Of a DNA stretch of 53,105 nt, positions 30,847 through 46,429 are shown in pieces. A program made the position numbers and the translations under genes. Each line of letters opens with the position of its first letter. The stretch's first letter is position 1. The notes under the pieces are model-generated. The model did not search any database. It was not told where the DNA came from and saw only the letters and a list, made by a program, of their open reading frames with translations. Location of the stretch: positions 1 through 53,105 of the forward strand of contig JAAVZE010000101.1 of assembly GCA_022791495.1 (NCBI GenBank). Direction: 5' to 3'. This stretch comes from Eubacterium sp. (lineage in GTDB: Bacteria > Bacillota > Clostridia > Lachnospirales > Lachnospiraceae).

Positions 30847-31992
30847 ATGAACATTAATTTTCATTATTATTTGATTAAAGCCATGGCCATCGAGGCAGGA
30901 TTAAGTGAGGATGAGGCACAGGTCCTGGCGCTGACTTCCCAGATGGTGGACGACGTGACACCGGACTTTTTCAAAGGAGAACAGTTTCCTACACAGAAGG
31001 GAAAGATGCTGAAAATCTATGTAGAAAACCAACCCCCGGGATATTTTCAGGAAAATGCCATGGTGGGGGCGGCAGGGGACCATTATTATGAGTTCCTGCC
31101 TTCGATCACCTCCTTTGGCCTGCTGGATGCGAGAAAAGAATTTTATCAGCTCGAAAGTGTGACGCCTTTCCACTTTTATGTGGAAAATTATACGGAGAAT
31201 CCAGCGGACCGCAGTACTTTGCGGACAAAGCCGGCATTGCGGGGAAGTAATCTGTATAACGCCATCGATGCCATCGTAGACAGTATGGTTCAAGACAGGG
31301 AAGCGGGGGATGACTCGAAGAGGCTTTGGGACTTAGTTCATTTAGGAATGCTTCTTCATGTGTTTGCCGACACTTTTGCCCATGATGGTTTCAGTGGATC
31401 CCTGGGATGGGAAAACGATGCAAAGATCATCAATATTTTCGATGCGGGGCTTCAGGAGAGAGGAAGAGAAGGGATCGAGCATTTTTCAGACCGTCTTGGA
31501 AGTCTTACCGCCTGTGGACACGGACAGCTGGCGCATTTGCCGGATGTATGCAGTGCCACCTTCTGGTATCGGTATAGGGCGCAGGAAAATGACAATTTTT
31601 CCAAAGAAAAATGCCGCTGTAACCGCATTGTGTTTGAGCAGTGTGCGAAGTATATTTTTGAGTGGCTTATGAAGTTGGCAGGGGCACAGGATCACACCGC
31701 AGGCAGATGGGAGCAGATTAGAACGCCACTGCTGGAAACAGCATGTTTGGTCAGCAGTGAGATGGATGACGTAAAGCATGCCCAGGAGCTTTCAGCCCTA
31801 TGGGCGGTAAATTATTTCCATGACCAGAATAAGATCTCCTGGCTTGAGTACAGTACACAGAGTTTATTTGGACAGGAAATAGCTGGAAATGTAAATGGCG
31901 TTCCTGTGTACCGTTTTGAAAATGAAGAGATCTTTTATCTGTTTAATCAGGTGACTTATGAGATGAGAAAGCACGTGACAGGTAAATATTAG
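30847..31992 (+). CDS. DUF6765-like protein, predicted helical metal-binding hydrolase fold
   Basis: A 381-residue soluble protein without signal peptide. The N-terminus (INFHYYLIKAMAIEAGLSED, then LALTSQMVDD) and the segment LGMLLHVFADTFAHDGFSG with His171, Asp175 and His179 match DUF6765-type proteins. The H...D...H spacing on a helix is that of zinc-dependent phospholipase C and S1/P1 nuclease folds, so a metal-dependent hydrolase is plausible but not shown. GAGAGGAG lies nine bases upstream. First gene of a six-gene unit with DUF2589, SLATT-like and CHAP genes; the same order is not one I know from a described system. Confidence 0.75.
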   Translation: MNINFHYYLIKAMAIEAGLSEDEAQVLALTSQMVDDVTPDFFKGEQFPTQKGKMLKIYVENQPPGYFQENAMVGAAGDHYYEFLPSITSFGLLDARKEFYQLESVTPFHFYVENYTENPADRSTLRTKPALRGSNLYNAIDAIVDSMVQDREAGDDSKRLWDLVHLGMLLHVFADTFAHDGFSGSLGWENDAKIINIFDAGLQERGREGIEHFSDRLGSLTACGHGQLAHLPDVCSATFWYRYRAQENDNFSKEKCRCNRIVFEQCAKYIFEWLMKLAGAQDHTAGRWEQIRTPLLETACLVSSEMDDVKHAQELSALWAVNYFHDQNKISWLEYSTQSLFGQEIAGNVNGVPVYRFENEEIFYLFNQVTYEMRKHVTGKY

Positions 31993-32024
31993 AAATTTTT
32001 ATTAGGCTAGAAACAGGCTTTTCT

Positions 32025-32052
32025 GCCGGTGGCCGAGGCGATGCCGCCCGGC
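32025..32052 (+). repeat. GC-rich hairpin in the gap before the first DUF2589 gene
   Basis: GCCGG-T-GGC (32025-32033) pairs with GCC-GC-CCGGC (32043-32052) with small bulges. There is no T-run. It lies between the DUF6765-like and DUF2589-like genes and could set relative expression by RNA processing. Confidence 0.4.
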
Positions 32053-32084
32053 TGTACAAGAGCAGTCCGAAAGGAGTAATGAGA

Positions 32085-32561
32085 GTGAGACAGCAGAATT
32101 TTGATGAGTTGGTAGCAGCTATCCAGAAGTCTTTTTTACAGTGCAGCCGACTTGCAGAGAGACAACATATAGAAATGTTATCAGGGTTCTTTGATTCGGA
32201 AAATAAACCGGTTAGTATACCTCTTAGTATGCCTCAGTTCGATGACAGTGGAAATATTACATATCAAGATGTATCCATTCCCAAACTGTGCCTTGTTCCT
32301 ATATCATCACTGAAACTGGACGGGATCAAAGTAGATTTTAAGGTCAGGCTCACAGGAGAGGTTTCACTGGAGGAAAAGGCGGGAGAAAACTCTTCACATA
32401 ATACGGACAAAAAAGGACGTTCTTTTGTCGGTTATCTCCCAGGAGGAGGGCTCAAAAGAAATTCAGATGATTTTGCCAATATTACGCTGCAGTTTACTTC
32501 TCAGGATCCCCCGGAGGGGATCATGCGCATACAGGATGAGCTCATTCGGGTATCGCTGTAG
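32085..32561 (+). CDS. DUF2589-like protein (short form)
   Basis: A 158-residue soluble protein from the GTG at 32085. AAGGAG lies eight bases before that GTG; the ATG at 32079 is only two bases from it and less likely. After a helical start (NFDELVAAIQKSFLQCSRLAERQ) come beta strands with the DUF2589 pattern: ISIP-like PLSMP, VSIPKLCLVPISSLKLDGI, VDFKVRLTGEV, and the closing ITLQFTSQDPPEGIMRIQDEL. It is the shorter of two DUF2589-type genes in the unit and lacks the glycine-rich tail. DUF2589 has no known function. Confidence 0.75.
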   Translation: MRQQNFDELVAAIQKSFLQCSRLAERQHIEMLSGFFDSENKPVSIPLSMPQFDDSGNITYQDVSIPKLCLVPISSLKLDGIKVDFKVRLTGEVSLEEKAGENSSHNTDKKGRSFVGYLPGGGLKRNSDDFANITLQFTSQDPPEGIMRIQDELIRVSL

Positions 32562-32631
32562 CGTGCTGTCAGGAAAGTCTTTTCTATAAATCATCATATG
32601 CACAGGTATATGTGCAGGAAAGGAGGACATT

Positions 32632-33381
32632 ATGGCAGATGAATTGGTAAAAATGCAGGATCAGTTCAGTGGACTGGACATGGGAGCATTGATCGGCGGG
32701 CCCTTGAAGGCGGCGTGTGACGCCCAAATCATGATGGCAAAAGCAACATCTGATTTTATCCAGCATGTTGGTATGGATGATGTGGATGCCAGTGGGATTA
32801 GAAAGGTAAGAACGGTAGATTTTTCTTTCCAGAGACCGTCCACAGCGGGAGATGGAAACGGAATTGGCATGGAAAAGGTGAATTTAAGTGTTCCCCTCTT
32901 ATCCATCGTGAAAATTCCGGCGCTTTCTGTAGACGATGTGAATGTGTCCTTTGATATGGAGGTAAAATCTTCTGTCAGCAGTGAAAAGACTTCCGATAAA
33001 TCGGGATCGCTGGATGCCAAGATGGGATTGAAGATTGGTCCATTTACCGCGGATGTAAGCATTAAGGGTTCCGTTTCCGCCCATGAGAGCAATACCAGGA
33101 AAAGTGATAATTCGGCGAAGTACCATGTAGAAGTGCATGCAAAGGATACGGGAATGCCGGAGGGTCTGGCTAAGGTGCTGGATATTCTTTCCACAGCAAG
33201 TGCACCGGCTCAGATCGAGGCGGTAAAGAATGAAAGGATACCTGGCAGCACCACGGGTGGAACGACGCCAGGAAGCAGTCCATCTGGTGGCAGCACGCCA
33301 GGAGGAGGCACATCCAGTGGCGGTTCATCGGGTGGCAGCGGCTCAGGAGGCTCGTCCGGCGGACATTCTGGTAAGAACTAA
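32632..33381 (+). CDS. DUF2589 protein with glycine-serine-rich tail
   Basis: A 249-residue protein. Residues ~1-55 are helical (LGALIGGPLKAACDAQIMMA-like), ~60-190 carry the DUF2589 core (VNLSVPLLSIVKIPALSVDD, VSFDMEVKSSVS, GPFTADVSIKGSV, YHVEVHAKDTGMPEGLAKVL), and the last ~45 are a low-complexity tail of Gly, Ser, Thr and Pro. AAAGGAGG is six bases upstream. Together with the preceding gene it forms a paralogous pair; DUF2589 proteins often come in twos, which suggests a hetero-oligomer. Not secreted by any visible signal. Confidence 0.88.
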   Translation: MADELVKMQDQFSGLDMGALIGGPLKAACDAQIMMAKATSDFIQHVGMDDVDASGIRKVRTVDFSFQRPSTAGDGNGIGMEKVNLSVPLLSIVKIPALSVDDVNVSFDMEVKSSVSSEKTSDKSGSLDAKMGLKIGPFTADVSIKGSVSAHESNTRKSDNSAKYHVEVHAKDTGMPEGLAKVLDILSTASAPAQIEAVKNERIPGSTTGGTTPGSSPSGGSTPGGGTSSGGSSGGSGSGGSSGGHSGKN

Positions 33382-33412
33382 TCAATAAATAGTGCGCAAA
33401 TGGAGGTATAGT

Positions 33413-33682
33413 ATGGCGGAGACATTTTCTGTGGCGGATGTAGGGTATGTTCACCGAATCATAGTGGGGAACGACAATCCGGAAAAACAGCCGGATGAAG
33501 AGCATTACAGGAAGCAGACGGAGTTTTTGAACCGGTGTCTGAGTGAGTTCCCCAAAGGGAAGATCATCGCTCAGGAGAAAAATTTTTATATTCTGAACAT
33601 CGGGGAGCATCAGGTAGTCATGCAGTATGTGGTGTATCATGTGGGGTTCGCCAGAAAACCTCCATGGCTTGCGCCAAATTGA
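33413..33682 (+). CDS. Small protein of unknown function in the DUF2589 unit
   Basis: An 89-residue soluble protein. GGAGG lies seven bases before the chosen ATG; an upstream in-frame GTG at 33392 includes that site and is not used. The sequence has a polar N-terminal half and a hydrophobic strand-rich C-terminal half (FYILNIGEHQVVMQYVVYHVGF). I recognise no family. It lies 31 bases after the DUF2589 gene and ends 41 bases before the SLATT-like gene, so it is co-transcribed; an adaptor or immunity role is possible but not supported by anything specific. Confidence 0.65.
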   Translation: MAETFSVADVGYVHRIIVGNDNPEKQPDEEHYRKQTEFLNRCLSEFPKGKIIAQEKNFYILNIGEHQVVMQYVVYHVGFARKPPWLAPN

Positions 33683-33723
33683 TCCTGCCGGCAAAGAACA
33701 TTGCTACAATGAAAGGAAATGAT

Positions 33724-34335
33724 ATGAAAAGTTATAGCTATAACAATGATATGGAATTTCTGGAGATGGTTGATGAATATGTCACCAACGATTATGTACG
33801 AAGATGTCTTCTTGGCTGTCTGGAATGGTACATGGTCATGTACCACAAATACAAATTCCGCTATCATGTGAGCAGTCTGCTTGGTCTTGTTCTTCCGCCT
33901 TGTGTCATTGTGATTAATGGCATTCAGGATTTTGAAGGGATGCATGTTTTTTGTAAGGTGGCAATTTCTGTTATTTCTGCTGTCGCTGCTATTGCCAACG
34001 GACTCGGGAGTCTTTATAAGTGGCATGAGAAATCAGTAGGGTACCGTAGCTGCATCGAACAGATCAAATGCGAGGCAGTTTATTACATGGCAGAGATCGG
34101 GAATTATGATGATCCTGAGCTGCGGGACAGCAATTTCCTTGAGAAGATAGAAGATATCACCACAAAGGAAAATCAGGGATGGTCCCAACTGGAACTGAAA
34201 AAACAGGAGGAAGATGTTCCACCGACAGAAGAGGAACAGGAAGAAAAAAAGCCGAAAAAGAAAAAGGAGGAAAAGCATGGGAGAAAAGAAAAAAATAACG
34301 CCCGACATGATTGTTGCACAGGCGAAGAAGTTTGA
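33724..34335 (+). CDS. Two-helix membrane protein, SLATT/DUF4231-like
   Basis: A 203-residue protein with two membrane helices (~46-66 and ~75-97) followed by a helix with the SLATT/DUF4231 pattern: YKWHEKSVGYRSCIEQIKCE, where Trp100, Arg108 and Glu112 take the places usual in the family. The C-terminal ~50 residues are very highly charged, first acidic then lysine-rich. SLATT proteins are predicted pore-forming effectors in bacterial conflict systems, usually next to a nucleotide-producing or -sensing partner; none is adjacent here. AAAGGA lies about six bases before the chosen ATG. The last 59 bases overlap the start of the next gene. Confidence 0.75.
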   Translation: MKSYSYNNDMEFLEMVDEYVTNDYVRRCLLGCLEWYMVMYHKYKFRYHVSSLLGLVLPPCVIVINGIQDFEGMHVFCKVAISVISAVAAIANGLGSLYKWHEKSVGYRSCIEQIKCEAVYYMAEIGNYDDPELRDSNFLEKIEDITTKENQGWSQLELKKQEEDVPPTEEEQEEKKPKKKKEEKHGRKEKNNARHDCCTGEEV

Positions 34336-34777
34336 GGGAGTGAAAGAGTCCCCGGCAAACAGCAATAATGTAATATTCAATACTCATTATTATGGTCATG
34401 AGGTAAAAGGAGCTGCGTATCCGTGGTGCTGTGCCTTTGTCTGGGACGTGTTCCGGATGTGCGGTGCTTCTAAATTGTTTTATGACGGCCAGAAAACAGC
34501 GCTTTGTGCTGCTGTGGAGAGCTGGGGAAAAAGTAAGCACCTGGCAATCAGTGATAAGAGCAAGGGAAAAAAAGGCGATCTTGTGATCTTTGACTTTACA
34601 CATAGTGGAAGGGCCTGCCACATTGGGATTATTATAAAGAAAATTGACAACAAAAACTATAAGACGATCGAGGGAAATACTGGTTCTGGAAATAACAGCA
34701 ACGGTGGTATGGTGATGGAACGGAGCCGGAACGTAAACCTGATCCGGTGCATCATACGTCCTAAATATGATACATAA
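34277..34777 (+). CDS. CHAP-fold cysteine amidase/peptidase without signal peptide
   Basis: A 166-residue NlpC/P60-superfamily protein of the CHAP type. The nucleophile is Cys51 in YPWCCAFVWDVF, the general base His115 in CHIGIII, and Glu132/Asn134 in TIEGNT complete the site; GDLVIFDF is the usual strand before the His. Such enzymes cut peptidoglycan peptides or spermidine-type amides. It has no signal peptide or membrane helix, so it either acts in the cytoplasm or needs another route out. The start at 34277 is set by GGAGG seven bases upstream. The gene begins 59 bases inside the SLATT-like gene and is the last of the unit before a strong terminator. Confidence 0.85.
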   Translation: MGEKKKITPDMIVAQAKKFEGVKESPANSNNVIFNTHYYGHEVKGAAYPWCCAFVWDVFRMCGASKLFYDGQKTALCAAVESWGKSKHLAISDKSKGKKGDLVIFDFTHSGRACHIGIIIKKIDNKNYKTIEGNTGSGNNSNGGMVMERSRNVNLIRCIIRPKYDT

Positions 34778-34795: not shown

Positions 34796-34838
34796 AAAGG
34801 CTGGTGCCGTTTAGAAACAAGAATGTACCAGCCTTTTT
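34796..34838 (+). terminator. Terminator after the DUF2589/SLATT/CHAP unit
   Basis: AAAGGCTGGT (34796-34805) pairs perfectly with ACCAGCCTTT (34827-34836), and the T-run continues to 34838. It marks the end of the six-gene unit and separates it from the recombinase gene. Confidence 0.9.
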
Positions 34839-34940
34839 CCTGCTTTTGGCAAAAAAGATATGCACCTTGGACATACAGAAATTATTCAGCTTTTTATTCG
34901 TGTTATTATACATTTTAGTAATAGAAATGGAGCGTGTACG

Positions 34941-35756
34941 ATGAAAGATAAAACGATGGAAGCGTATAGGGAGTTTTTGGTTGCAGAGGACAAAGCAAAT
35001 AGTACAATTTCTACCTATATACGTCAGGCGAGGCGTTTTGTGGCAGTTTGTGGAAAGTCCCCGGACAACAGAAGCGTGGTAGAGCATTACGTGGACATGT
35101 TAAAAAGACAGTATAAACCTGCCACGGTAAATTTGTATGCGATCGCCATTAACAGTTATCTGAAATGGAGCGGGAATGAGGATATGAAAATACATACAAA
35201 GAAGCTTAAGAAAATGTTTGTGCTGGACAACGTTATTTCCAACGAGGATTACCGGATGATGCTGGATTATGCCAGAGAGACGGGGCGCGAAAAATATTAC
35301 TATATTATGAAAGTGCTTGCCGGGACGGGAATACGGGTGGGAGAGCTGAGGTATATAACGGTGGAAAATGTAAAGCGTGGTCGGGGTGTCGTATACAACA
35401 AGGGAAAATACCGTGAGATCTTTATTTCTCCCGGACTTCAAAATATTTTAATGGAGTACTGCAGGCAGGGAAATATCCGTCAGGGAGCTATCTTCACTGG
35501 AACGAAAGGGAGTGTCCTGTCCCGCAGCGCCGTGTGGCAGATGCTTATGAAGATCGCCGACAGGGCAGGGGTGGATAAGGCAAAGGCACATCCCCACTCC
35601 TTCCGTCATTTTTTTGCAAAGACATACATCAATAAGTGCGGGGATATCACGGCACTGGCTGACATCCTGGGACACAACTCCCTGGAAACGACGCGGATCT
35701 ACACCATGCGCACCGGGGAGGAGATCAGAGAGCAGATGGACGCCCTGGGGCTGTGA
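34941..35756 (+). CDS. Tyrosine recombinase (XerC/D-like integrase)
   Basis: A 271-residue site-specific recombinase: N-terminal SAM-like DNA-binding domain (residues ~5-85, STISTYIRQARRFVAVCG) and a catalytic domain with the first Arg in GTGIRVGELRYI, HPHSFRHFFAKTY (His and second Arg), LGHNSLETTRIYT (His and nucleophile Tyr). All catalytic residues are present. GGAG lies eight bases upstream. It stands alone between the DUF2589 unit and a low-GC restriction-modification pair. Whether it is a Xer-type housekeeping enzyme, a phase-variation invertase or the integrase of the flanking DNA cannot be told; no clear attachment repeats were seen. Confidence 0.93.
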   Translation: MKDKTMEAYREFLVAEDKANSTISTYIRQARRFVAVCGKSPDNRSVVEHYVDMLKRQYKPATVNLYAIAINSYLKWSGNEDMKIHTKKLKKMFVLDNVISNEDYRMMLDYARETGREKYYYIMKVLAGTGIRVGELRYITVENVKRGRGVVYNKGKYREIFISPGLQNILMEYCRQGNIRQGAIFTGTKGSVLSRSAVWQMLMKIADRAGVDKAKAHPHSFRHFFAKTYINKCGDITALADILGHNSLETTRIYTMRTGEEIREQMDALGL

Positions 35757-36007: not shown

Positions 36008-36664
36008 ATGAAACCAATATTGACGATAGATAGTCTTATTAAAACTGCGAGTCGTTTCTGTGAGATTGAAAGTATAAAAAACCATAGAGAACTTATTGGT
36101 GTTACAGATGGGAAAGCTGTTGGAACATATGTTGAACATAAATTTCAGAGTTTTCTCCATTCACAGTATATTGTTGAGATAGGAAGTAGCGCGAAGGGGA
36201 TTGATTTACCTGGTATAGATATTCAGACAGATATAAAGGTTACTTCAATCACGCAGCCACAATCAAGTTGTCCGTTTAAAAATGCTCGTCAAAAGATTTT
36301 TGGGTTAGGTTATAATCTTTTGGTTTTTGTTTATGACAAACGGGATACAAGCGATGCTTGCATGTTGCATTTTACGCATTGTACATTTATCCATAAGGAA
36401 AGGACTGCTGATTTTACTATCACTAAACGCTTGCGTGAAATGGTATATGATGGAGCAAACAGGGAAGATATTATTGGATTTTTGCAGGATAGAAATGTTC
36501 CTGGTGACGAAATAGTCTATAATGACCTCGCCAATGAAATACTTGACAATCCTCCGAATCAAGGATATCTAACCATAAGTAACGCATTGCAATGGCGGTT
36601 GCAGTACGCAAGAGTTATTGTGTTAGATAACAGCGTTCAAGGGGTTGTTAATTATGAGTGGTAA
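36008..36664 (+). CDS. Type II restriction endonuclease, PD-(D/E)XK fold
   Basis: A 218-residue soluble protein. The segment KGIDLPGIDIQTDIKVTS fits the PD-(D/E)XK nuclease active site with Asp, then D-I-K; GTYVEHKFQSFL upstream supplies the conserved helix glutamate, and QPQSSCPFKNARQKIFG and YNLLVFVYDK strands follow. It overlaps by 11 bases with an adenine methyltransferase gene, the standard arrangement of a type II pair. Its base composition is clearly lower in GC than the genes before 35.7 kb, which suggests horizontal gain. Recognition sequence unknown. The start follows AATAGGAG at about nine bases. Confidence 0.85.
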   Translation: MKPILTIDSLIKTASRFCEIESIKNHRELIGVTDGKAVGTYVEHKFQSFLHSQYIVEIGSSAKGIDLPGIDIQTDIKVTSITQPQSSCPFKNARQKIFGLGYNLLVFVYDKRDTSDACMLHFTHCTFIHKERTADFTITKRLREMVYDGANREDIIGFLQDRNVPGDEIVYNDLANEILDNPPNQGYLTISNALQWRLQYARVIVLDNSVQGVVNYEW

Positions 36665-38174
36665 GCGTGAATATGGTGATTATCAAACTCCGTTTGATTT
36701 CGCAGAAAGAGTATGCCATTATTTGAAAGATTGCCGCCACATTAAACCATCTGCAATAGTTGAACCTACTTGCGGAATGGGTCATTTCTTAAAAAGCAGC
36801 CTTTTATTTGGTGCAAACGAATATTATGGGATAGAGATAAACCCACAATATTGTGAGTATTGTAAAAAATTTGTAAATAGTGACAAGGTAAAAATCGTTA
36901 ATACAGATTTTTTTACATTTTCTTCAAAGTCCTTGATAAAAGACAAACGGCAAGTTCTTGTTATTGGCAATCCCCCATGGGTAACTAATAGCACGTTGTC
37001 TGCCCTTGGTTCTGAAAATATACCAATAAAAGCAAATTTCAAAGGTTTAAAAGGCATTGATGCTATAACAGGTGCAAGTAATTTTGATATTTGTGAATAT
37101 ATTATTTTACAATTAATTAATGAATATAAAGATACTAATACAGTTATTGCTATGCTCTGTAAAACATCTGTTGCAAGAAACGTGTTTAAAGAATTGAAAA
37201 GGAATTACATTGCTTTCTCATCGTGTGATATTTTGGAATTTGATGCTGCAAAAGTATTTGCTATAGGTGCAAGTGCTTGTGTACTGGTTGTTCAACTTAT
37301 AGACAACTTCATTTCACAAGATGTTTGCAATGTCTATGATTTTGATTATCCTCAAAAAATTAAATCACAATTCGGATATTCAAATGGGCAATTTTATAGC
37401 AATTTAGGCGTAGAAATAGAAAATTTTTCTGGGAGATGTTGTTTTGAATGGCGGCAAGGGGTTAAGCATGACTGTTCAAAAATAATGGAACTTACTATGT
37501 ATAATGGAATGCTTCAAAATGGAAGAAAAGAAAGTGTTCAGATTGAAGATGATATTGTTTTTCCTTTAATTAAAAGTAGTATGTTCAAGGCACCTATTAT
37601 TCATACCTTTTCAAAATATGTTATTGTAACGCAAAGGAAGGCTCGTGAAGAAACAGAACATCTTGAACAAGAGGTGCCAAAAACATGGGGGTATCTTAAT
37701 GAGAATAAAGAATTTTTCGAGAATAGAAAAAGTTCAATTTATCGTGGTGCCCCTCCGTTTTCTATGTTTGGTGTAGGCAATTATTCATATTCAAAATATA
37801 AAGTAGGGGTTAGTGGTTTTTACAAGAAACCTCTATTCTCCGTACTATATTCAAATGACAATAAGCCTGTTATGACAGATGACACAAGCTATTTTATTTG
37901 CTTTGACAGCTATGATATGGCATATGTTGCCATGCTTTTGCTAAATTCTAAAAAAGTTCAGCGTTTTCTTACGAGCATAGCATTTTTGGATGCTAAAAGA
38001 CCATATACAAAGAAAGTCCTTGAACGCATTGATTTTGATAAAATTGTTAATACTTTGACATTAAATGAACTGACTGCGACAGAAAATGATTTAAACCTCT
38101 CAAATTATGTTACTTTACCTATGTATGATGCTTTTAAGTCATTACTTGGTATGGGACAAATGAGTTTTACTTAA
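36654..38174 (+). CDS. Adenine-specific DNA methyltransferase
   Basis: A 506-residue N6-adenine methyltransferase. Motif I for S-adenosylmethionine is in AIVEPTCGMGHFLKSSL, and the catalytic NPPW is in VLVIGNPPWVTNS. The C-terminal ~250 residues form the target-recognition region and resemble TaqI/Eco57I-class enzymes. The ATG at 36654 lies within the end of the endonuclease gene; a TTG three codons earlier is possible. It should methylate the same site the upstream endonuclease cuts, protecting host DNA. Low GC content like its partner. No terminator with a clear stem follows; a weak hairpin lies at about 38183-38205. Confidence 0.93.
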   Translation: MSGKREYGDYQTPFDFAERVCHYLKDCRHIKPSAIVEPTCGMGHFLKSSLLFGANEYYGIEINPQYCEYCKKFVNSDKVKIVNTDFFTFSSKSLIKDKRQVLVIGNPPWVTNSTLSALGSENIPIKANFKGLKGIDAITGASNFDICEYIILQLINEYKDTNTVIAMLCKTSVARNVFKELKRNYIAFSSCDILEFDAAKVFAIGASACVLVVQLIDNFISQDVCNVYDFDYPQKIKSQFGYSNGQFYSNLGVEIENFSGRCCFEWRQGVKHDCSKIMELTMYNGMLQNGRKESVQIEDDIVFPLIKSSMFKAPIIHTFSKYVIVTQRKAREETEHLEQEVPKTWGYLNENKEFFENRKSSIYRGAPPFSMFGVGNYSYSKYKVGVSGFYKKPLFSVLYSNDNKPVMTDDTSYFICFDSYDMAYVAMLLLNSKKVQRFLTSIAFLDAKRPYTKKVLERIDFDKIVNTLTLNELTATENDLNLSNYVTLPMYDAFKSLLGMGQMSFT

Positions 38175-40393: not shown

Positions 40394-40711
40394 GTTGTCG
40401 TATCTCCTTGTAAAATATAATTTTACTTAAAAATCTGAAAAACACTTGATTCGTTCATGGGTGGACATGTTATTATATTAAATATATTAGGCATAAATTT
40501 GGTTTTTGTCAACCAAATATTTTGCGGTATTTTAGCAGGTAACTTTGTATGGATAGCGGTTTTGTGTCGTGTTTGTGGGACGTGGTGTTGTTTGAATGTT
40601 ATCTCTAAGGGAGAATTATCATATAGAGTATTTTTTTGAAAAGGACGAATGTAAATGTTTCCGGAATGGAGGATTAAATTGAAAAAATGTAAGAAATGGA
40701 GGGAAAGGAAA
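40394..40711. promoter_or_regulatory. Intergenic control region between MerR and the giant secreted protein gene
   Basis: The main feature is a perfect palindrome ATTTGGTT-TTTGTC-AACCAAAT (40497-40518), a likely operator. Inside it TTGTCA (40506-40511) lies 16 bases before TATTTT, a possible promoter reading into the secreted-protein gene. A 60-codon open frame from 40457 has no ribosome binding site and is hydrophobic by chance. Confidence 0.45.
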
Positions 40712-43700
40712 ATGAAAAACAGTTTTATGCGTACAGGATTTTACAAAAGTGTTGTCGGCCTTGTGATGATTTTTGCACTGGTATGTACAAACTTAAGCGG
40801 TGGTGCGGTTGTGAGCAGGGCGGCAACTCCGTCTCCGGGCAGTGTCATAACTTCCAACCAGGACTGGGGGGAGCAGACACTGCAGGCAGGAACCTATACG
40901 ATTAACCCGGGCGTGACGGTGACGGTATCAGGAAGACTTACAGTCAGTGGAACTGTCACGATAAAAGGAGGGGGAAAGCTGGTAAGAAGCGGTAGTTATA
41001 AGGGAAAGGATAAAGACTCTTCTTCCAGCAGTATATTTTATTTATCAGGTGGAACACTGAATCTGGAAAATATTACGGTAGATGGCGGCAATGTAGCAGC
41101 TTATGGTGTCGCTGTGTATATAGATTCAGGTACTGTAAACATGAAAACCGATGCCGTCGTTGAAAACAATATCAATATGAATACGAATACAACCGGCGCT
41201 AATGCGGCAGGAGGTATTTATTGTGGGAAAAACGGAACATTAAATATAGACGGTGGGACGATTCGGAACTGTCGTACAAGTGAAGTAGTGGGAAGTGATG
41301 CGTATGAGCATGCAGGGGGGGGAATTTATCTCAAGGGAACCTGTAACATGACCAGTGGAAATATCACGGGAAATAAAGCGTCGAATGGCGGCGGCATCTA
41401 TCTGGCTTCTACTGATGCGGTATTACGCTTGTCAGGGGGTGTGATTTCGGGCAATTCTGCTGCTGGAGCCGGTTCTGGGATTTATTATTCTACTCTGAAT
41501 GCTGCCACAAGTAAAGTATATATTGGTGGAATGGCAAATGTAAAGGATATCATTTATCTGGATAATAACAATGGAGAATTGTTCCCCTATATTACTTCTG
41601 TGATTCGTTATCCAGTCACGTTGAGCTGTAGTTCCAGAGACGAGGGAAGAGTTTTGGCAGGTGGCGGTGACGGCTATATACTTACCAGTGTGGATGCCAG
41701 CAAGATTTCTATGACAGGAACGACGTTATATTCCAGATTGGACAAGACGAGTAACCAGATCTATCTGAGTAAGACAGAGGAACCGGAGGCAATGTGGCAG
41801 GAGAGTGCCGGTGGTGCGTGGAAGCAGGGGAGATTTACGGCGGCGCTGACAAATGTTTATGACGGTGGTACGATCAAGCTTTTGACAGCGGTTGTCATTA
41901 CGGAAAAGGCGGAGATTACAAAGGCAGTTACCATTACCAGTAACGATGCCTCTGCCCCCTGTGTTATGACAAGGATGCCTCTTGGACAGTGGGGAAACAT
42001 AACGATAAATGGTGGTAGTTTAACGCTGAAAAATGTGATTTATGACGGAAACCGCGATTGGATACAGGGAACAGAAGATGCTAAAAAGCAGTCACTGATA
42101 AAGGTCGGAAATAACGCCGCTGATACAGGAGCCAGCCTGACGCTGGGGAATGGTGCAGTCGTCCGGGACGGTTATAAATCGAGTGGCTCTGGTGTGTTCG
42201 CCGTATATGGAACGATGATAATAAATGACGGTGCCGTTATAGAAAACTGTGAAGTGACAGGTACCGGTGGAGGTATCTGGATAAGCCAGGACGGTACTTT
42301 CACGATGAATGGAGGAACGATTCGCAGATGTAAGGCAGGTGGCGGCGGTTCAGCTATTTCTGTTGATGGGACATGTACCTTAAGGGGAGGTAGCATTACG
42401 GGAAATGTAGATTCGGAAAAGAACTGTGCTGTCTATCTGCGAAAAAATAATTGCGGTGATCTGACCATGGGAGGCATTACGATTGCCGACAATGAGTACA
42501 GTGTTTATAATGAAGACAAGGATGATGACAGGGGCATCTCTGTCACAGGTGATTCTACGCTTTCAGGTAGTATTTATACAATGGATGCTATTATTGCATC
42601 GGACAAAGCCGTGAGCAGCCTGACAAAAACGTATGAGATTATGTGGGCGGCTTCTCCGGTACCGGGAACGATTGTAGTGAAAGGAAGTAAGGATACACAG
42701 CATTATCGTTTGGCGAATACCGGCTATGGACTGAATCCAGCAGGTGATGGGAGCAGTAACCTTGTTGTGGCACAGAAATATAACGTGTCATTTAATAAAA
42801 ACGGAGGGAGCGGCACCGCTTCTGACATAGAAGTAATCTGTGGGGGAACTTATGGAACGCTCCCCAGTTTGACAAGGACAGGTTATACATTTGATGGTTG
42901 GTATACGGCAGTAACAGGCGGCAGTCAGATAACGGCACAGACAACTGTGACTGCCACAGCGGCACATACACTTTATGCTCATTGGACGGCAAACACTTAT
43001 ACGGTAACGTACAATAAAGACGGGGGAATAATTGCAAATGAAAACAAATATAAAAGCTATACATATGGTACAGGTCTGACGTTGCCGACACCGACAAAGA
43101 CGGGTTATACGTTTGCCGGCTGGTATACAAGTGCTGGCTTTTCCGGGTCAAAGCAGACAAGTATTTCAGGAACAGCCACCGGAAACAAGACGTATTATGC
43201 GAAGTGGAATCCTGCCACATATAAGATTACATATATCCTGGATGGCGGAACGGTCACAGGCAATCCGGCGGGCTACACGATTGAAAGCAGTGCCATTACC
43301 TTAAAGAATCCGACGAAAAAGGGTTATACCTTTACCGGATGGAGTGGAACGGATTTAACGGGCAGCAACAATATGACCGTTGCCATTGCGGCAGGAAGTA
43401 CGGGAGAACGTACCTTTACCGCACATTGGGCGGTGGGAGGGTATACAGTTACGCTGCATACAAACGGAGGCAGCGGCGGTACAGAGTTATCTTCCTATAA
43501 CTATGGAACAGGGGCAGTCCTGCCGACGAACTGGACAAAAACAGGCTATACCTTTTCAGGCTGGTATGACAATGAGGGTTGTAGCGGAACAGCAGTGACG
43601 AATATAACAGCCACGGATACCGGAAATAAGGAATATTGGGCAAAGTGGACGGACAATATTGCTCCAGTCATCGGTTCGCTGCAATACAGCTATCAGCCGG

Positions 43701-46429
43701 AAAGTTTCTGGCATTGGCTGATTGGCAAGGACAGCCTGATTATAACAGTGCCCGTAACGGAAGAAGGCAGCGGAGCAGATGAAATAACCTATATCGTGAC
43801 ACCGGAAGGAGGCACAGCGGGGACTAAGACCTCGGCTGTTGTGAATGGCGAAGCAAAGATTACCGTTTCTGCGGACTTTAAGGGAACGATAGTGATTTCC
43901 TGCACAGATAAGGATGGAAACACATCGGCAGGCGTGACCGTGGGAACGGACTTAAATGCAACAGGCATTCTAATAGAGGATCATGCGCCGCAGATTATAT
44001 ATAAGCCGGAAAATGTTGATATATTAACAACAGGCGAGTATGAGACGGCTCCTGTTATTACTGTGACCGTAACAGATAACAAGGACAATGTGATTTCCAG
44101 TGGAATTGCTTCTGTCAGCTATCAAATTGGAAACGGCGGTGTAAAGACAGTAGACCATGACTATACAACAGGCATGATTGTAAATGACAGCTTTACGATT
44201 CCGGCAAGTGAGATTCCTGCGGGTGAAACGGTCATTACCGTGACAGCGGCAGACCATGCAGGAAACACCGTTACGGCAACGCAGACAATCAAAGTGCACA
44301 GCCACAGCGGAACATTGGTTCCGGAAAAGACACCGACCTGTACCGCAGCGGGAAACAAGGAATACTATACTTGTACCTGTGGAAAATGGTTTGAGGATAG
44401 TAGCTGCACAAAGGAGACTGCAGACCATGAAAGTGTAGTAAAAAATGCTTTAGAACATAATTTCGATGACAGCGGTTATGTGTATAACGAAACACAGCAT
44501 TGGAGAAAGTGTTCCCGGTGCGACGTGTCAGAGCAGAAAGAAGACCATGATTATAACGATACTGCAGATAAGTGTAAGGTGTGTGGTTATTCCAGGCTGG
44601 TTGATCCGGATCATACCCATAGGGGCACATTGATTGCAGCGACCGAGCCAACGTGTACCCTGCCAGGCAATATAGAGTACTACTTCTGCGATTGTGAAAA
44701 GCTGTTTTCTGACAGCGCCTGCACGGTTGAGGTTACGGAGTCGGAAATTAAGCGGGAGGCATTCGGGCATGACTTTGGCAGCTTTGAACACGACCAGAGC
44801 GAACACTGGAAGAAGTGTGCCCGTTGTGGAGAAGAAGAGGAAAGAGGTAATCATGTATACGATGATGACAGTGACCGTGACTGCAATGAATGCGGATATG
44901 AAAGAGCGACCGGGCATACGCACGGCGCAGTACAAACGGTAAATGAAAAAGCGGCGACCTGTACAGAGGATGGAAATACGGCATATTACATCTGTTCCTG
45001 CGGCGAATGGTTTTCTGACAATGCCTGCACGAATGAGATTATCAATCACGCAAGCGTAGTAATAGGAAAGTCAGGGCATGATTTCAGCGGACAATATCAG
45101 TCTGATGAAAGTGACCATTGGAAAAAATGTTCCCGATGCGATGAAATACAGTCAAAAGAAAACCATATTTACGACAATGCCACAGATAAAGACTGTAATG
45201 TGTGTGGTTATGAAAGAATGACAGAGAATCCGCCGGAACAAGAGACAGGGTTCGTCAGCAAAGATGTAGAAAAAGGAGAAAATGTTCCGGACACACAATT
45301 TGCCACCAGTACGAAGGAGCTGGAAGATATGCTTCTGACAGAAGCGGAGAAGAGGCAGGTGGAGAGTGGAACAGACATTAAATTTGTCCTTGATGTAAAA
45401 GACGCATCGACTACGGTCAGCAGTGAGGATAAAGCAGCAGTGCAGACGGCACTGGGAGAATTTGCGGTGGGACAGTATCTTGACATAGGTCTGTTTAAGA
45501 TGATCGGAGAAAACCGCAGCCTGATATCCAAGACGGCAGAAAAGATTACGATTGTGATTGATGTGCCGGGCGGTCTCAAAAATACAGATAACAAAACGGC
45601 AAGGAACTTTGCGGTAATCCGTGTGCATAACGGAAAAGCAGACATTCTGAATGACCTGGATAACAGTGCTGACACGATTACCATAGCGACAGACCGATTT
45701 TCTGCCTATGCGATTGTCTATAAGGACACCACAGAGGAAGAGAACAAGGGTGCTGCCCCGGAGCCGAAAGAGGACAAACCACAGGAACCAAAAAAGGATA
45801 AACCTCAGACGAAAAAGCCGTCAGAAAAAGAAACAAGGATAATTACATTAAATTCCGGTCTGAAAACAGTTCAGACTGGAAAGGAACTCCGCATATCATG
45901 GGGCAGGGTCTCCGGTGCAGACGGTTATAACGTCTATATGCAGTATTGCGGGAAAGATTTTACCGCCAAATCCCTTCATGCGGTAAAAAGCGGAAAGACA
46001 AATAAAATAACGGTAAAGAAGATAAACGGAAAGGAACTTGACACCACAAAGAATTATAAAGTGTATGTAGAGGCATACAAGATGGCAGGGAAGAAAAAGG
46101 CCAGTCTGGCAAAGAGCATAACTGTCCATATCGCAGGAAAGGACAGTAAAAAATACACCAACGTCAAGACGGTTCAGGTAAATAAAACCTCTTTTACACT
46201 GAAAAAAGGAGGGAGCGTAAAAATACAGCCCAAAGCCGTATTATACAATAAGTGGAAAAAGCAGCTTTCTGCGAATCATACCAAACAATTCCGCTTTAAG
46301 AGCAGCAACCCAAATGTGGCAACGGTATCTTCTGGTGGAAAGATTAAGGCAAAAGGGACGGGCGAATGTATCATCTATGTATATGCCAGAAACGGCTGTA
46401 GAAGAAAAATTAAGGTAAAAGTAAAGTAG
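40712..46429 (+). CDS. Giant secreted beta-helix protein with Flg_new, cysteine-pair and Big_2 domains
   Basis: A 1905-residue secreted protein. Residues 1-38 are a signal peptide. Residues ~45-680 are a right-handed beta-helix with many GGGIYL, LNIDGGTIRN and GGTIRRC turns, similar to pectate-lyase-like adhesins. Residues ~690-983 are four Flg_new (InlB B-repeat-like) modules marked by TKTGYTFAGWYT. An Ig-like region follows. Residues ~1196-1505 hold three ~100-residue repeats with paired Cys-X2-Cys motifs (CSRCD, CKVCGY) and CTCGKWFEDSSC, probably metal binding. A P/K/E-rich linker precedes a fibronectin-III-like domain (~1714-1806) and a C-terminal Big_2-like domain (~1815-1905). There is no LPXTG anchor, so attachment is non-covalent or the protein is released. 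GGAAAGGAAA upstream sets the start at 40712. The disrupted genes at 4.9-8.3 kb are of related type. Confidence 0.9.
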   Translation: MKNSFMRTGFYKSVVGLVMIFALVCTNLSGGAVVSRAATPSPGSVITSNQDWGEQTLQAGTYTINPGVTVTVSGRLTVSGTVTIKGGGKLVRSGSYKGKDKDSSSSSIFYLSGGTLNLENITVDGGNVAAYGVAVYIDSGTVNMKTDAVVENNINMNTNTTGANAAGGIYCGKNGTLNIDGGTIRNCRTSEVVGSDAYEHAGGGIYLKGTCNMTSGNITGNKASNGGGIYLASTDAVLRLSGGVISGNSAAGAGSGIYYSTLNAATSKVYIGGMANVKDIIYLDNNNGELFPYITSVIRYPVTLSCSSRDEGRVLAGGGDGYILTSVDASKISMTGTTLYSRLDKTSNQIYLSKTEEPEAMWQESAGGAWKQGRFTAALTNVYDGGTIKLLTAVVITEKAEITKAVTITSNDASAPCVMTRMPLGQWGNITINGGSLTLKNVIYDGNRDWIQGTEDAKKQSLIKVGNNAADTGASLTLGNGAVVRDGYKSSGSGVFAVYGTMIINDGAVIENCEVTGTGGGIWISQDGTFTMNGGTIRRCKAGGGGSAISVDGTCTLRGGSITGNVDSEKNCAVYLRKNNCGDLTMGGITIADNEYSVYNEDKDDDRGISVTGDSTLSGSIYTMDAIIASDKAVSSLTKTYEIMWAASPVPGTIVVKGSKDTQHYRLANTGYGLNPAGDGSSNLVVAQKYNVSFNKNGGSGTASDIEVICGGTYGTLPSLTRTGYTFDGWYTAVTGGSQITAQTTVTATAAHTLYAHWTANTYTVTYNKDGGIIANENKYKSYTYGTGLTLPTPTKTGYTFAGWYTSAGFSGSKQTSISGTATGNKTYYAKWNPATYKITYILDGGTVTGNPAGYTIESSAITLKNPTKKGYTFTGWSGTDLTGSNNMTVAIAAGSTGERTFTAHWAVGGYTVTLHTNGGSGGTELSSYNYGTGAVLPTNWTKTGYTFSGWYDNEGCSGTAVTNITATDTGNKEYWAKWTDNIAPVIGSLQYSYQPESFWHWLIGKDSLIITVPVTEEGSGADEITYIVTPEGGTAGTKTSAVVNGEAKITVSADFKGTIVISCTDKDGNTSAGVTVGTDLNATGILIEDHAPQIIYKPENVDILTTGEYETAPVITVTVTDNKDNVISSGIASVSYQIGNGGVKTVDHDYTTGMIVNDSFTIPASEIPAGETVITVTAADHAGNTVTATQTIKVHSHSGTLVPEKTPTCTAAGNKEYYTCTCGKWFEDSSCTKETADHESVVKNALEHNFDDSGYVYNETQHWRKCSRCDVSEQKEDHDYNDTADKCKVCGYSRLVDPDHTHRGTLIAATEPTCTLPGNIEYYFCDCEKLFSDSACTVEVTESEIKREAFGHDFGSFEHDQSEHWKKCARCGEEEERGNHVYDDDSDRDCNECGYERATGHTHGAVQTVNEKAATCTEDGNTAYYICSCGEWFSDNACTNEIINHASVVIGKSGHDFSGQYQSDESDHWKKCSRCDEIQSKENHIYDNATDKDCNVCGYERMTENPPEQETGFVSKDVEKGENVPDTQFATSTKELEDMLLTEAEKRQVESGTDIKFVLDVKDASTTVSSEDKAAVQTALGEFAVGQYLDIGLFKMIGENRSLISKTAEKITIVIDVPGGLKNTDNKTARNFAVIRVHNGKADILNDLDNSADTITIATDRFSAYAIVYKDTTEEENKGAAPEPKEDKPQEPKKDKPQTKKPSEKETRIITLNSGLKTVQTGKELRISWGRVSGADGYNVYMQYCGKDFTAKSLHAVKSGKTNKITVKKINGKELDTTKNYKVYVEAYKMAGKKKASLAKSITVHIAGKDSKKYTNVKTVQVNKTSFTLKKGGSVKIQPKAVLYNKWKKQLSANHTKQFRFKSSNPNVATVSSGGKIKAKGTGECIIYVYARNGCRRKIKVKVK

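Follow-up and report, generated by a model that had tools for sequence, protein, structure and literature searches.

DUF2589-S and DUF2589-L form a paired gene module linked to exchangeable wall hydrolases in bacteria and to endolysin-like genes in viral records

Genes at the locus

The window analysed here is a stretch of 53,105 nucleotides from Eubacterium sp. of the family Lachnospiraceae (positions 1 to 53,105, forward strand, of contig JAAVZE010000101.1, assembly GCA_022791495.1), and the system in question is a group of six codirectional plus-strand open reading frames (ORFs), called A to F, at positions 30847-34777, all of which were confirmed to be present (Table 1). B and C encode a short and a long member of the DUF2589 family (DUF2589-S and DUF2589-L), and D encodes a small protein of a nameless family. 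Only the DUF2589 pair and D make up the widely conserved part of the six genes. What can be said most safely is that DUF2589-S and DUF2589-L are a paired module linked to wall-lysis genes both in viral records and in bacteria, and that most bacterial loci have D as well.

Table 1. Features of the cassette and its immediate surroundings in the window
Feature	Position	Strand	Description	Matches and measures
A	30847..31992	+	DUF6765 protein, 381 aa; possible metal-dependent hydrolase; accessory gene	PF20551 2.6e-37
B	32079..32561	+	Short DUF2589 (S), 160 aa; core	PF11655 6e-18, 66.1 bits (cut-off 23)
C	32632..33381	+	Long DUF2589 (L), 249 aa; core	PF11655 6.8e-45, 153.6 bits (cut-off 23)
D	33413..33682	+	Nameless 89-aa family; core in bacterial loci	
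E	33724..34335	+	SLATT/DUF4231 membrane protein; accessory	NF033634 59.9 bits (cut-off 41); PF14015 8.7e-09
F	34277..34777	+	CHAP peptidoglycan hydrolase, endolysin type, 166 aa	PF05257 2.8e-08; phrog_21357 endolysin 1.7e-36
Terminator hairpin	34796..34836	+	10-bp perfect inverted repeat	-22.1 kcal/mol, z -5.5 vs 200 shuffles
Tyrosine recombinase	34941..35756	+	Adjoins the cassette; start by eye	PF00589 1.8e-25 on ORF 34860-35756

An initial annotation, made from the sequence alone, had described six codirectional genes under these family names, with overlaps and a strong terminator. The layout, the names, the terminator and the E/F overlap (59 bp, with F starting at 34277) stand, and a D/E overlap does not. 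The starts of D, E, and F were set from ribosome-binding sites judged by eye and from relatives; that of D was corrected to 33413, and, on the sequence, E most likely starts at 33724 because the protein of a relative begins at the corresponding methionine, so that D and E would not overlap. The terminator is missing from the list of a pattern scan because its loop length is above 8.

Searches of D against Pfam, NCBIfam, PADLOC, and PHROG retrieved nothing up to an E-value of 1, and none was retrieved among PDB sequences either. The Pfam comparison of A to PF00882 (Zn_dep_PLPC) scored 14.9 bits, below the curated cut-off of 26.8, and C ends in a Gly/Ser-rich tail. Hydropathy gives E two hydrophobic segments (counted on a longer ORF), and the NCBIfam and PHROG searches matched it to no family annotated as holin. 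F also matches PHROG tail-lysin families, weakly. Its CHAP residues Cys51/Cys52, His115, Glu132, and Asn134, which we take to be the active-site positions, are invariant in all seven aligned sequences, the window's included. No protein from A to F exceeds a crude N-terminal hydropathy limit for signal peptides (the value for F is 0.5). The endolysin match, the invariant residues and the hydropathy value agree with the earlier description of F as a cysteine-type hydrolase lacking an evident signal peptide. No virion or packaging gene was recognised among A to F using PHROG. Compared to five relatives, dN/dS is 0.03-0.24 for each of the six genes where found (A and E are absent from one relative, L025) and 0.03-0.08 for D.

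Conservation of the DUF2589 pair and D

DUF2589 was detected in 2 of 348 genomes drawn evenly from the host phylum and in 11 of 145 relatives, the window's own genome being counted in both sets. Each of the 11 yielded two family matches; in G025, and in G341 of the 348-genome set, the two fall in a single open frame and are therefore one gene. An alignment of C, used to scan genome contigs, retrieved 214 relatives, of which the best 80 loci were kept: 45 from Pseudomonadota, 24 from Bacillota, 5 from Thermodesulfobacteriota, 2 each from Myxococcota and Actinomycetota, 1 from Campylobacterota, and 1 unplaced (NCBI phyla, loci dropped later included). Adding the window and ten relatives' stretches, then removing six duplicates and one locus with a single parsed DUF2589 (L083), gave the 84 bacterial loci used throughout. 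Many of these are close kin, and locus counts are thus not independent events.

Exactly two DUF2589 genes and one D are found at 75 of the 84 loci, in the order DUF2589-DUF2589-D at 55 and DUF2589-D-DUF2589 at 20 (intervening genes possible); five loci have two DUF2589 genes without D, and four have other arrangements. DUF2589 spans six named phyla, and the combination of two DUF2589 genes with D spans four. D itself is present at 77 of the loci, in four named phyla, which makes it the gene that accompanies the pair most consistently in bacteria. The D of the window is 33-99% identical to that of eight kin and 36-93% identical to 59 broader relatives. The conserved neighbourhood that the initial annotation led us to look for thus exists, as the DUF2589 pair and D, mostly with a wall hydrolase. 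The six genes as one unit do not recur: clusters of the DUF6765 and SLATT proteins, built by BLAST, occur at just 5 of the 84 loci, all close kin (Pfam covered part of the genes of the 84 loci), and 16 of the 17 DUF6765-bearing genomes among the 348 of the host phylum have no DUF2589 match. One divergent DUF2589 gene without D (L032:8638-12095) is followed by two genes of no assigned function as well as by genes for a lysozyme-type protein, matched by profile, and for an ELLD endolysin-like protein (3.4e-70).

In the literature library searched, DUF2589, DUF6765, and their Pfam accessions are mentioned in a single paper, and only briefly. There, the DUF2589-related genes AF0414-AF0417 of Archaeoglobus are upregulated on lactate (PMC3949148). 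B and C belong to the same family, PF11655, and that passage is silent on function, pairing and linkage to lysins.

Wall hydrolases beside the core

We searched for wall hydrolases with profiles of seven classes seeded from genes near the core, near meaning within 3.5 kb of it. A hydrolase was found near the core at 61 of the 84 loci (52 of the 69 with full 3.5-kb flanks and 9 of the 15 that are cut). By locus the classes are GH108 (22), GH19 (12), Amidase_2 (9), CHAP (6), a peptidoglycan (PG)-binding type (6), GH24 (4), and GH73 (2); L109, tallied as GH24, has an Amidase_2 as well. Near non-core DNA holds 63 matches in 584 kb and farther DNA holds 3 in 822 kb, a roughly 30-fold ratio that is biased upward because genes near the core supplied the seeds and other hydrolase families in far DNA would be missed; two of the 63, both at L070, may be a single split gene. 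Class representatives exceed the Pfam cut-offs for CHAP, GH73, Amidase_2, GH108, GH19, and phage lysozyme, and PG_binding_1 is the sole Pfam-assigned domain of the PG-binding type. Five classes (CHAP, GH108, GH19, PG-binding, and Amidase_2) match PHROG lysis families annotated as endolysin or amidase. Two of the 63 members of the lysin set, duplicates included, pass the crude hydropathy limit, and both are GH73.

The class of hydrolase beside the DUF2589 pair is exchangeable. On a DUF2589 tree the classes are clustered, with 8 changes needed among the hydrolase-bearing rows against a minimum of 6 for seven classes, and the tree therefore shows few repeat swaps beyond a single origin of each class. 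This tree has 84 rows (L032 out, L083 in) and comes from a short search that leaves 28 of its 79 inner branches open. Pfam tallies of 105 dereplicated proteins each from near and far DNA proved too diluted to measure enrichment per locus; among the families listed, the near tally has Amidase_2 (3) and PG_binding_1 (2) (25 of 128 listed), and the far tally has no wall-hydrolase family (25 of 132 listed). Of the PHROG families matched by the 105 near proteins, 25 of 128 are listed, and these include several for endolysins and one for a tail protein.

A small module, c33, was also observed as a gene of its own beside Amidase_2 lysins (L048:1545-1856) and seems, by eye, to be the N-terminus of the GH24 lysozyme in L109:8130-8846; it retrieved no Pfam family under an E-value of 0.1.

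The same site in relatives

Within the window's genus, one chromosomal site exists in three forms: A-B-C-D-E-CHAP-recombinase in the window, B-C-D-CHAP-recombinase at L025, and CHAP-recombinase at L148. A and E are gone from this site in both close relatives, which further argues against a six-gene unit. At L148:3400-4983 (genome G004), a leader and ribosome-binding site resemble by eye those 5' of A in the window, and since the leader is retained, the simplest explanation for this site is a deletion within a cassette that was once fuller.

The initial annotation had proposed a cell-surface or immune device in a defence-island setting, with DUF2589 as a putative scaffold and SLATT as a putative pore. 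The SLATT domain, the wall hydrolase and an adjacent restriction-modification pair would suit a suicide defence in which infection triggers host lysis through the SLATT and CHAP proteins. The adjacency of the pair stands, but in five relatives of the CHAP type the genes after the recombinase are others. Moreover, the sole PADLOC match listed for A to F is that of E with Cmr5 at an E-value of 0.23, the SLATT cluster is found at 5 of the 84 loci, and no sensor domain was recognised in A to F. Our sequence searches lend no support to anti-phage defence, and we regard suicide defence as very unlikely. The restriction-modification pair (window positions 36008-38174) consists of a type II restriction endonuclease (NF052465, 1e-96) and a type II methyltransferase (PADLOC 2.8e-122). 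Farther along, positions 40655-46429 form one ORF of 1924 aa.

Viral and plasmid records

A scan of viral records with the window's C alone as query found no relative, and near-empty early searches of this kind had led to a reading of the genes as not phage. That reading was overturned when an alignment query of IMG/VR retrieved 144 stretches encoding DUF2589, of which the best 80 were kept. Among 82 viral loci, 77 have two DUF2589 genes without D, 3 have two with D, and 2 have a single DUF2589 gene. D is found in two IMG/VR records. L153 and L234 come from a single record, which corresponds to the Roseateles chromosomal locus L054 and is possibly non-viral at that place. The viral pair has an endolysin-like neighbour within 3.5 kb at 34 of the 45 loci with full flanks and at 54 of the 82 overall, a label that rests on the PG_binding_1-like stretch of one family member, which matches a solved endolysin (2.8e-16), and not on a catalytic part. 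Inspected by eye, viral neighbours include RecT, a YqaJ-type nuclease, SSB, and a helicase. Terminase matches were found in 3 of 20 viral records (two above cut-off), and one 73-kb record has a block encoding proteins of 2568 and 1265 aa. The proteins of the viral DUF2589 loci are closely alike, and the record names suggest few source projects. As a separate observation, a 194-kb viral record (L239, G501) has DUF2589-L, D, and DUF2589-S clustered amid phage-like genes, by eye; no terminase match was found in it. Among plasmids, C matches 4 of 72,556 records, and the two inspected have a gene annotated as 'peptidoglycan-binding protein' within approximately 2.5 kb.

These records bear on the possibility that the cassette is a phage remnant, that is, late phage genes for structure or lysis that persist in the chromosome and do little or nothing for the host. 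Such an origin would account for the endolysin-like neighbour of the viral pair, for a tyrosine recombinase cluster within five genes of the core at 13 of the 84 bacterial loci, and for the missing cassette parts at the same site in two relatives. The low dN/dS of A to F argues against it, as do the spread of two DUF2589 genes with D over four named phyla and of DUF2589 over six, the low count of D among the viral loci (3 of 82, from 2 records), and the PHROG tally of near genes, which, among the families listed, names several for endolysins and one for a tail protein. We consider a remnant improbable.

Predicted structures of C and D

In the predicted structure of C, long antiparallel strands are flanked by a long helix at the N-terminus and another helix at the C-terminus; its mean pLDDT is 64, with best blocks at 80-92. 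The model of D has a pLDDT of 91. Between the strands of C lies a low-confidence amphipathic segment (residues ~113-157). This segment is 41-46 residues long with 21% Ser, and hydrophobicity alternates in its middle with a mean z of 2.1 against shuffles (72 related sequences, 98.6% above 1 and 61% above 2), the stretch having been picked after the model was seen and being the sole one tested. In the model, the segment fits a beta-hairpin that would become ordered on assembly, and ordinary hairpins alternate as well. A Foldseek search of BFVD matched C to one viral protein (1.7e-11, 38% identity), likely a sequence relative.

Accessory genes

Around the core lies an accessory layer, of which the DUF6765 and SLATT genes of the window are part. 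In Bacillota loci, the core is adjoined by Colicin-DNase/WHH proteins (L043, L046), by EEP nucleases (Exo_endo_phos; L044, L050), and by a patatin (L052). HNH proteins adjoin it at L040 (barely above cut-off) and L047 (by cluster). A TcdA/TcdB-type glycosyltransferase domain is encoded immediately after the long DUF2589 gene in L028:5887-7488 and L029:4973-6499 (both by Pfam) and in L076:10651-12174 (by cluster), in proteins of 507-533 aa; the Pfam families listed for the first two are of glycosyltransferase type, except that L029 also matches DUF7064 weakly. A protein at L038 and L039 has an HExxH motif by eye and matches SprT-like only at 0.013. A small protein with a hydrophobic N-terminus, cluster c3 (e.g., L058:11597-12076), is encoded within five genes of the core at 23 loci; it matched no Pfam family and is possibly an immunity protein or a lysin partner. 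In one cluster, which lies within five genes of the core at 8 loci, a member matches a PHROG holin (2.3e-12); a second stretch of the cluster, with guessed coordinates, retrieved no PHROG match. Regulators are often found nearby too, of the LuxR type at 20 loci and of the winged-helix type at 7.

This variety of enzymes could also mean that DUF2589-S, DUF2589-L, and D assemble into a particle or pore by which cassette enzymes enter other cells, with hydrolases, DNases, patatin, and glycosyltransferases as alternative effectors and immunity proteins among the accessory genes. We find this doubtful, and it is the main rival of release by lysis, the reading favoured below. It draws on the wall hydrolases adjoining the core and on the DNases, EEP nuclease, patatin, HNH, and glycosyltransferase genes found there instead or in addition, on the c3 family at 23 loci, which could confer immunity, and on the Ser-rich alternating segment of C, which alternates as beta-pore stem hairpins or tube loops would. 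It also explains better than lysis-coupled release why DNases follow D at four loci with no recognised lysin. However, no targeting or injection machinery was recognised in the neighbours inspected or scanned, the best PDB match of C in Foldseek has an E-value of just 0.77, and alternation is usual in ordinary beta-hairpins and was sought in one stretch chosen after the model.

Interpretation

We tentatively favour a phage-linked cassette in the chromosome, which would open the cell envelope and in doing so let cytoplasmic enzymes out, similar to holin/endolysin (type 10) secretion; its mechanism is inferred. The DUF2589 pair would derive from phages, and DUF2589-S, DUF2589-L, and D may form a heteromeric assembly that is membrane-active or virion-derived. 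A membrane protein (SLATT here, with E in a holin-like role, and a holin-family protein in some Lysobacterales) would give the leaderless hydrolase access to the wall. Folded enzymes from the same cassette would then exit the cell, namely the DUF6765 protein here and DNases, patatin, and glycosyltransferases elsewhere, and the cost would be expected to fall on only some of the producing cells. In favour of this reading are the recurrence of the pair with D, the wall hydrolases near the core and their changing classes, the holin match in one neighbouring cluster, the endolysin-like genes beside the viral pair, the small number of lysins that pass the hydropathy limit, the two inspected plasmids, and the parallels with type 10 and holin-dependent toxin secretion given below. 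A phage remnant and suicide defence are both less likely than lysis-coupled release and than delivery into other cells.

Several observations weigh against lysis-coupled release. L148 has the CHAP gene and the recombinase without DUF2589. No hydrolase was detected by the profiles, themselves seeded from near genes, at 23 of the 84 loci (17 of the 69 with full flanks), and at four of these 23 (L043, L044, L046, L050) a DNase lies directly 3' of D, an arrangement that would suit a hydrolase serving as cargo. No holin is proven in the window, and a holin-family member was established for one cluster only, near 8 of the 84 loci. Hydrophobic segments are no more frequent among near genes (79 of 339) than among far ones (170 of 637). 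Neither C nor D has a PDB match at an E-value of 0.001 in Foldseek (0.77 is the best for C). Lastly, DUF2589 occurs in 1 of 50,697 isolated-phage records, none of which has D or the viral short DUF2589.

A bolder proposal, which we hold to be rather unlikely, is that DUF2589-S, DUF2589-L, and D are a new translocation or pore module, used first in phage lysis and then as a multi-phylum bacterial platform with exchangeable enzymes, distinct from holins and known secretion systems. If so, the enzymes of the platform would be wall hydrolases, DNases, phospholipases, and glycosyltransferases. Connecting DUF2589, a family with no known function, with phages, exchangeable endolysins and a partner family that is itself new turns orphan families into testable machine parts and may reveal a widespread route for releasing or delivering enzymes without signal peptides.

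Comparison with known systems

E bears a SLATT domain, as in SLATT conflict systems. In those systems a nucleotide-signal or sensor partner is encoded alongside. No known SLATT-system partner was recognised among A to F, and searches of Pfam, NCBIfam, and PADLOC detected no nucleotide-signal or sensor family in A to F, the recombinase, the restriction-modification pair, or the upstream gene, although D and other proteins without a family could hide one.

In Clostridioides, toxins without signal sequences are secreted in a holin-dependent manner (PMC12150058). The cassette shares with TcdE-type secretion its setting in Clostridia, enzymes without evident signal peptides, and, at L028, L029, and L076, the TcdA/TcdB-type glycosyltransferase domain. 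It differs in that no TcdE relative was recognised and in that the glycosyltransferases of DUF2589 loci are only 507-533 aa long.

The lytic type 10 secretion system of Yersinia entomophaga releases a folded toxin complex (PMC10847048). DUF2589 loci, known here from their genes, differ from type 10 secretion in adding the pair and D, in varying the class of lysin, and in showing a holin at few loci. The two are alike in having an endolysin-type hydrolase without an evident signal peptide, encoded in the chromosome beside possible cargo genes, and a cluster with a holin-family member lies near 8 of the 84 loci.

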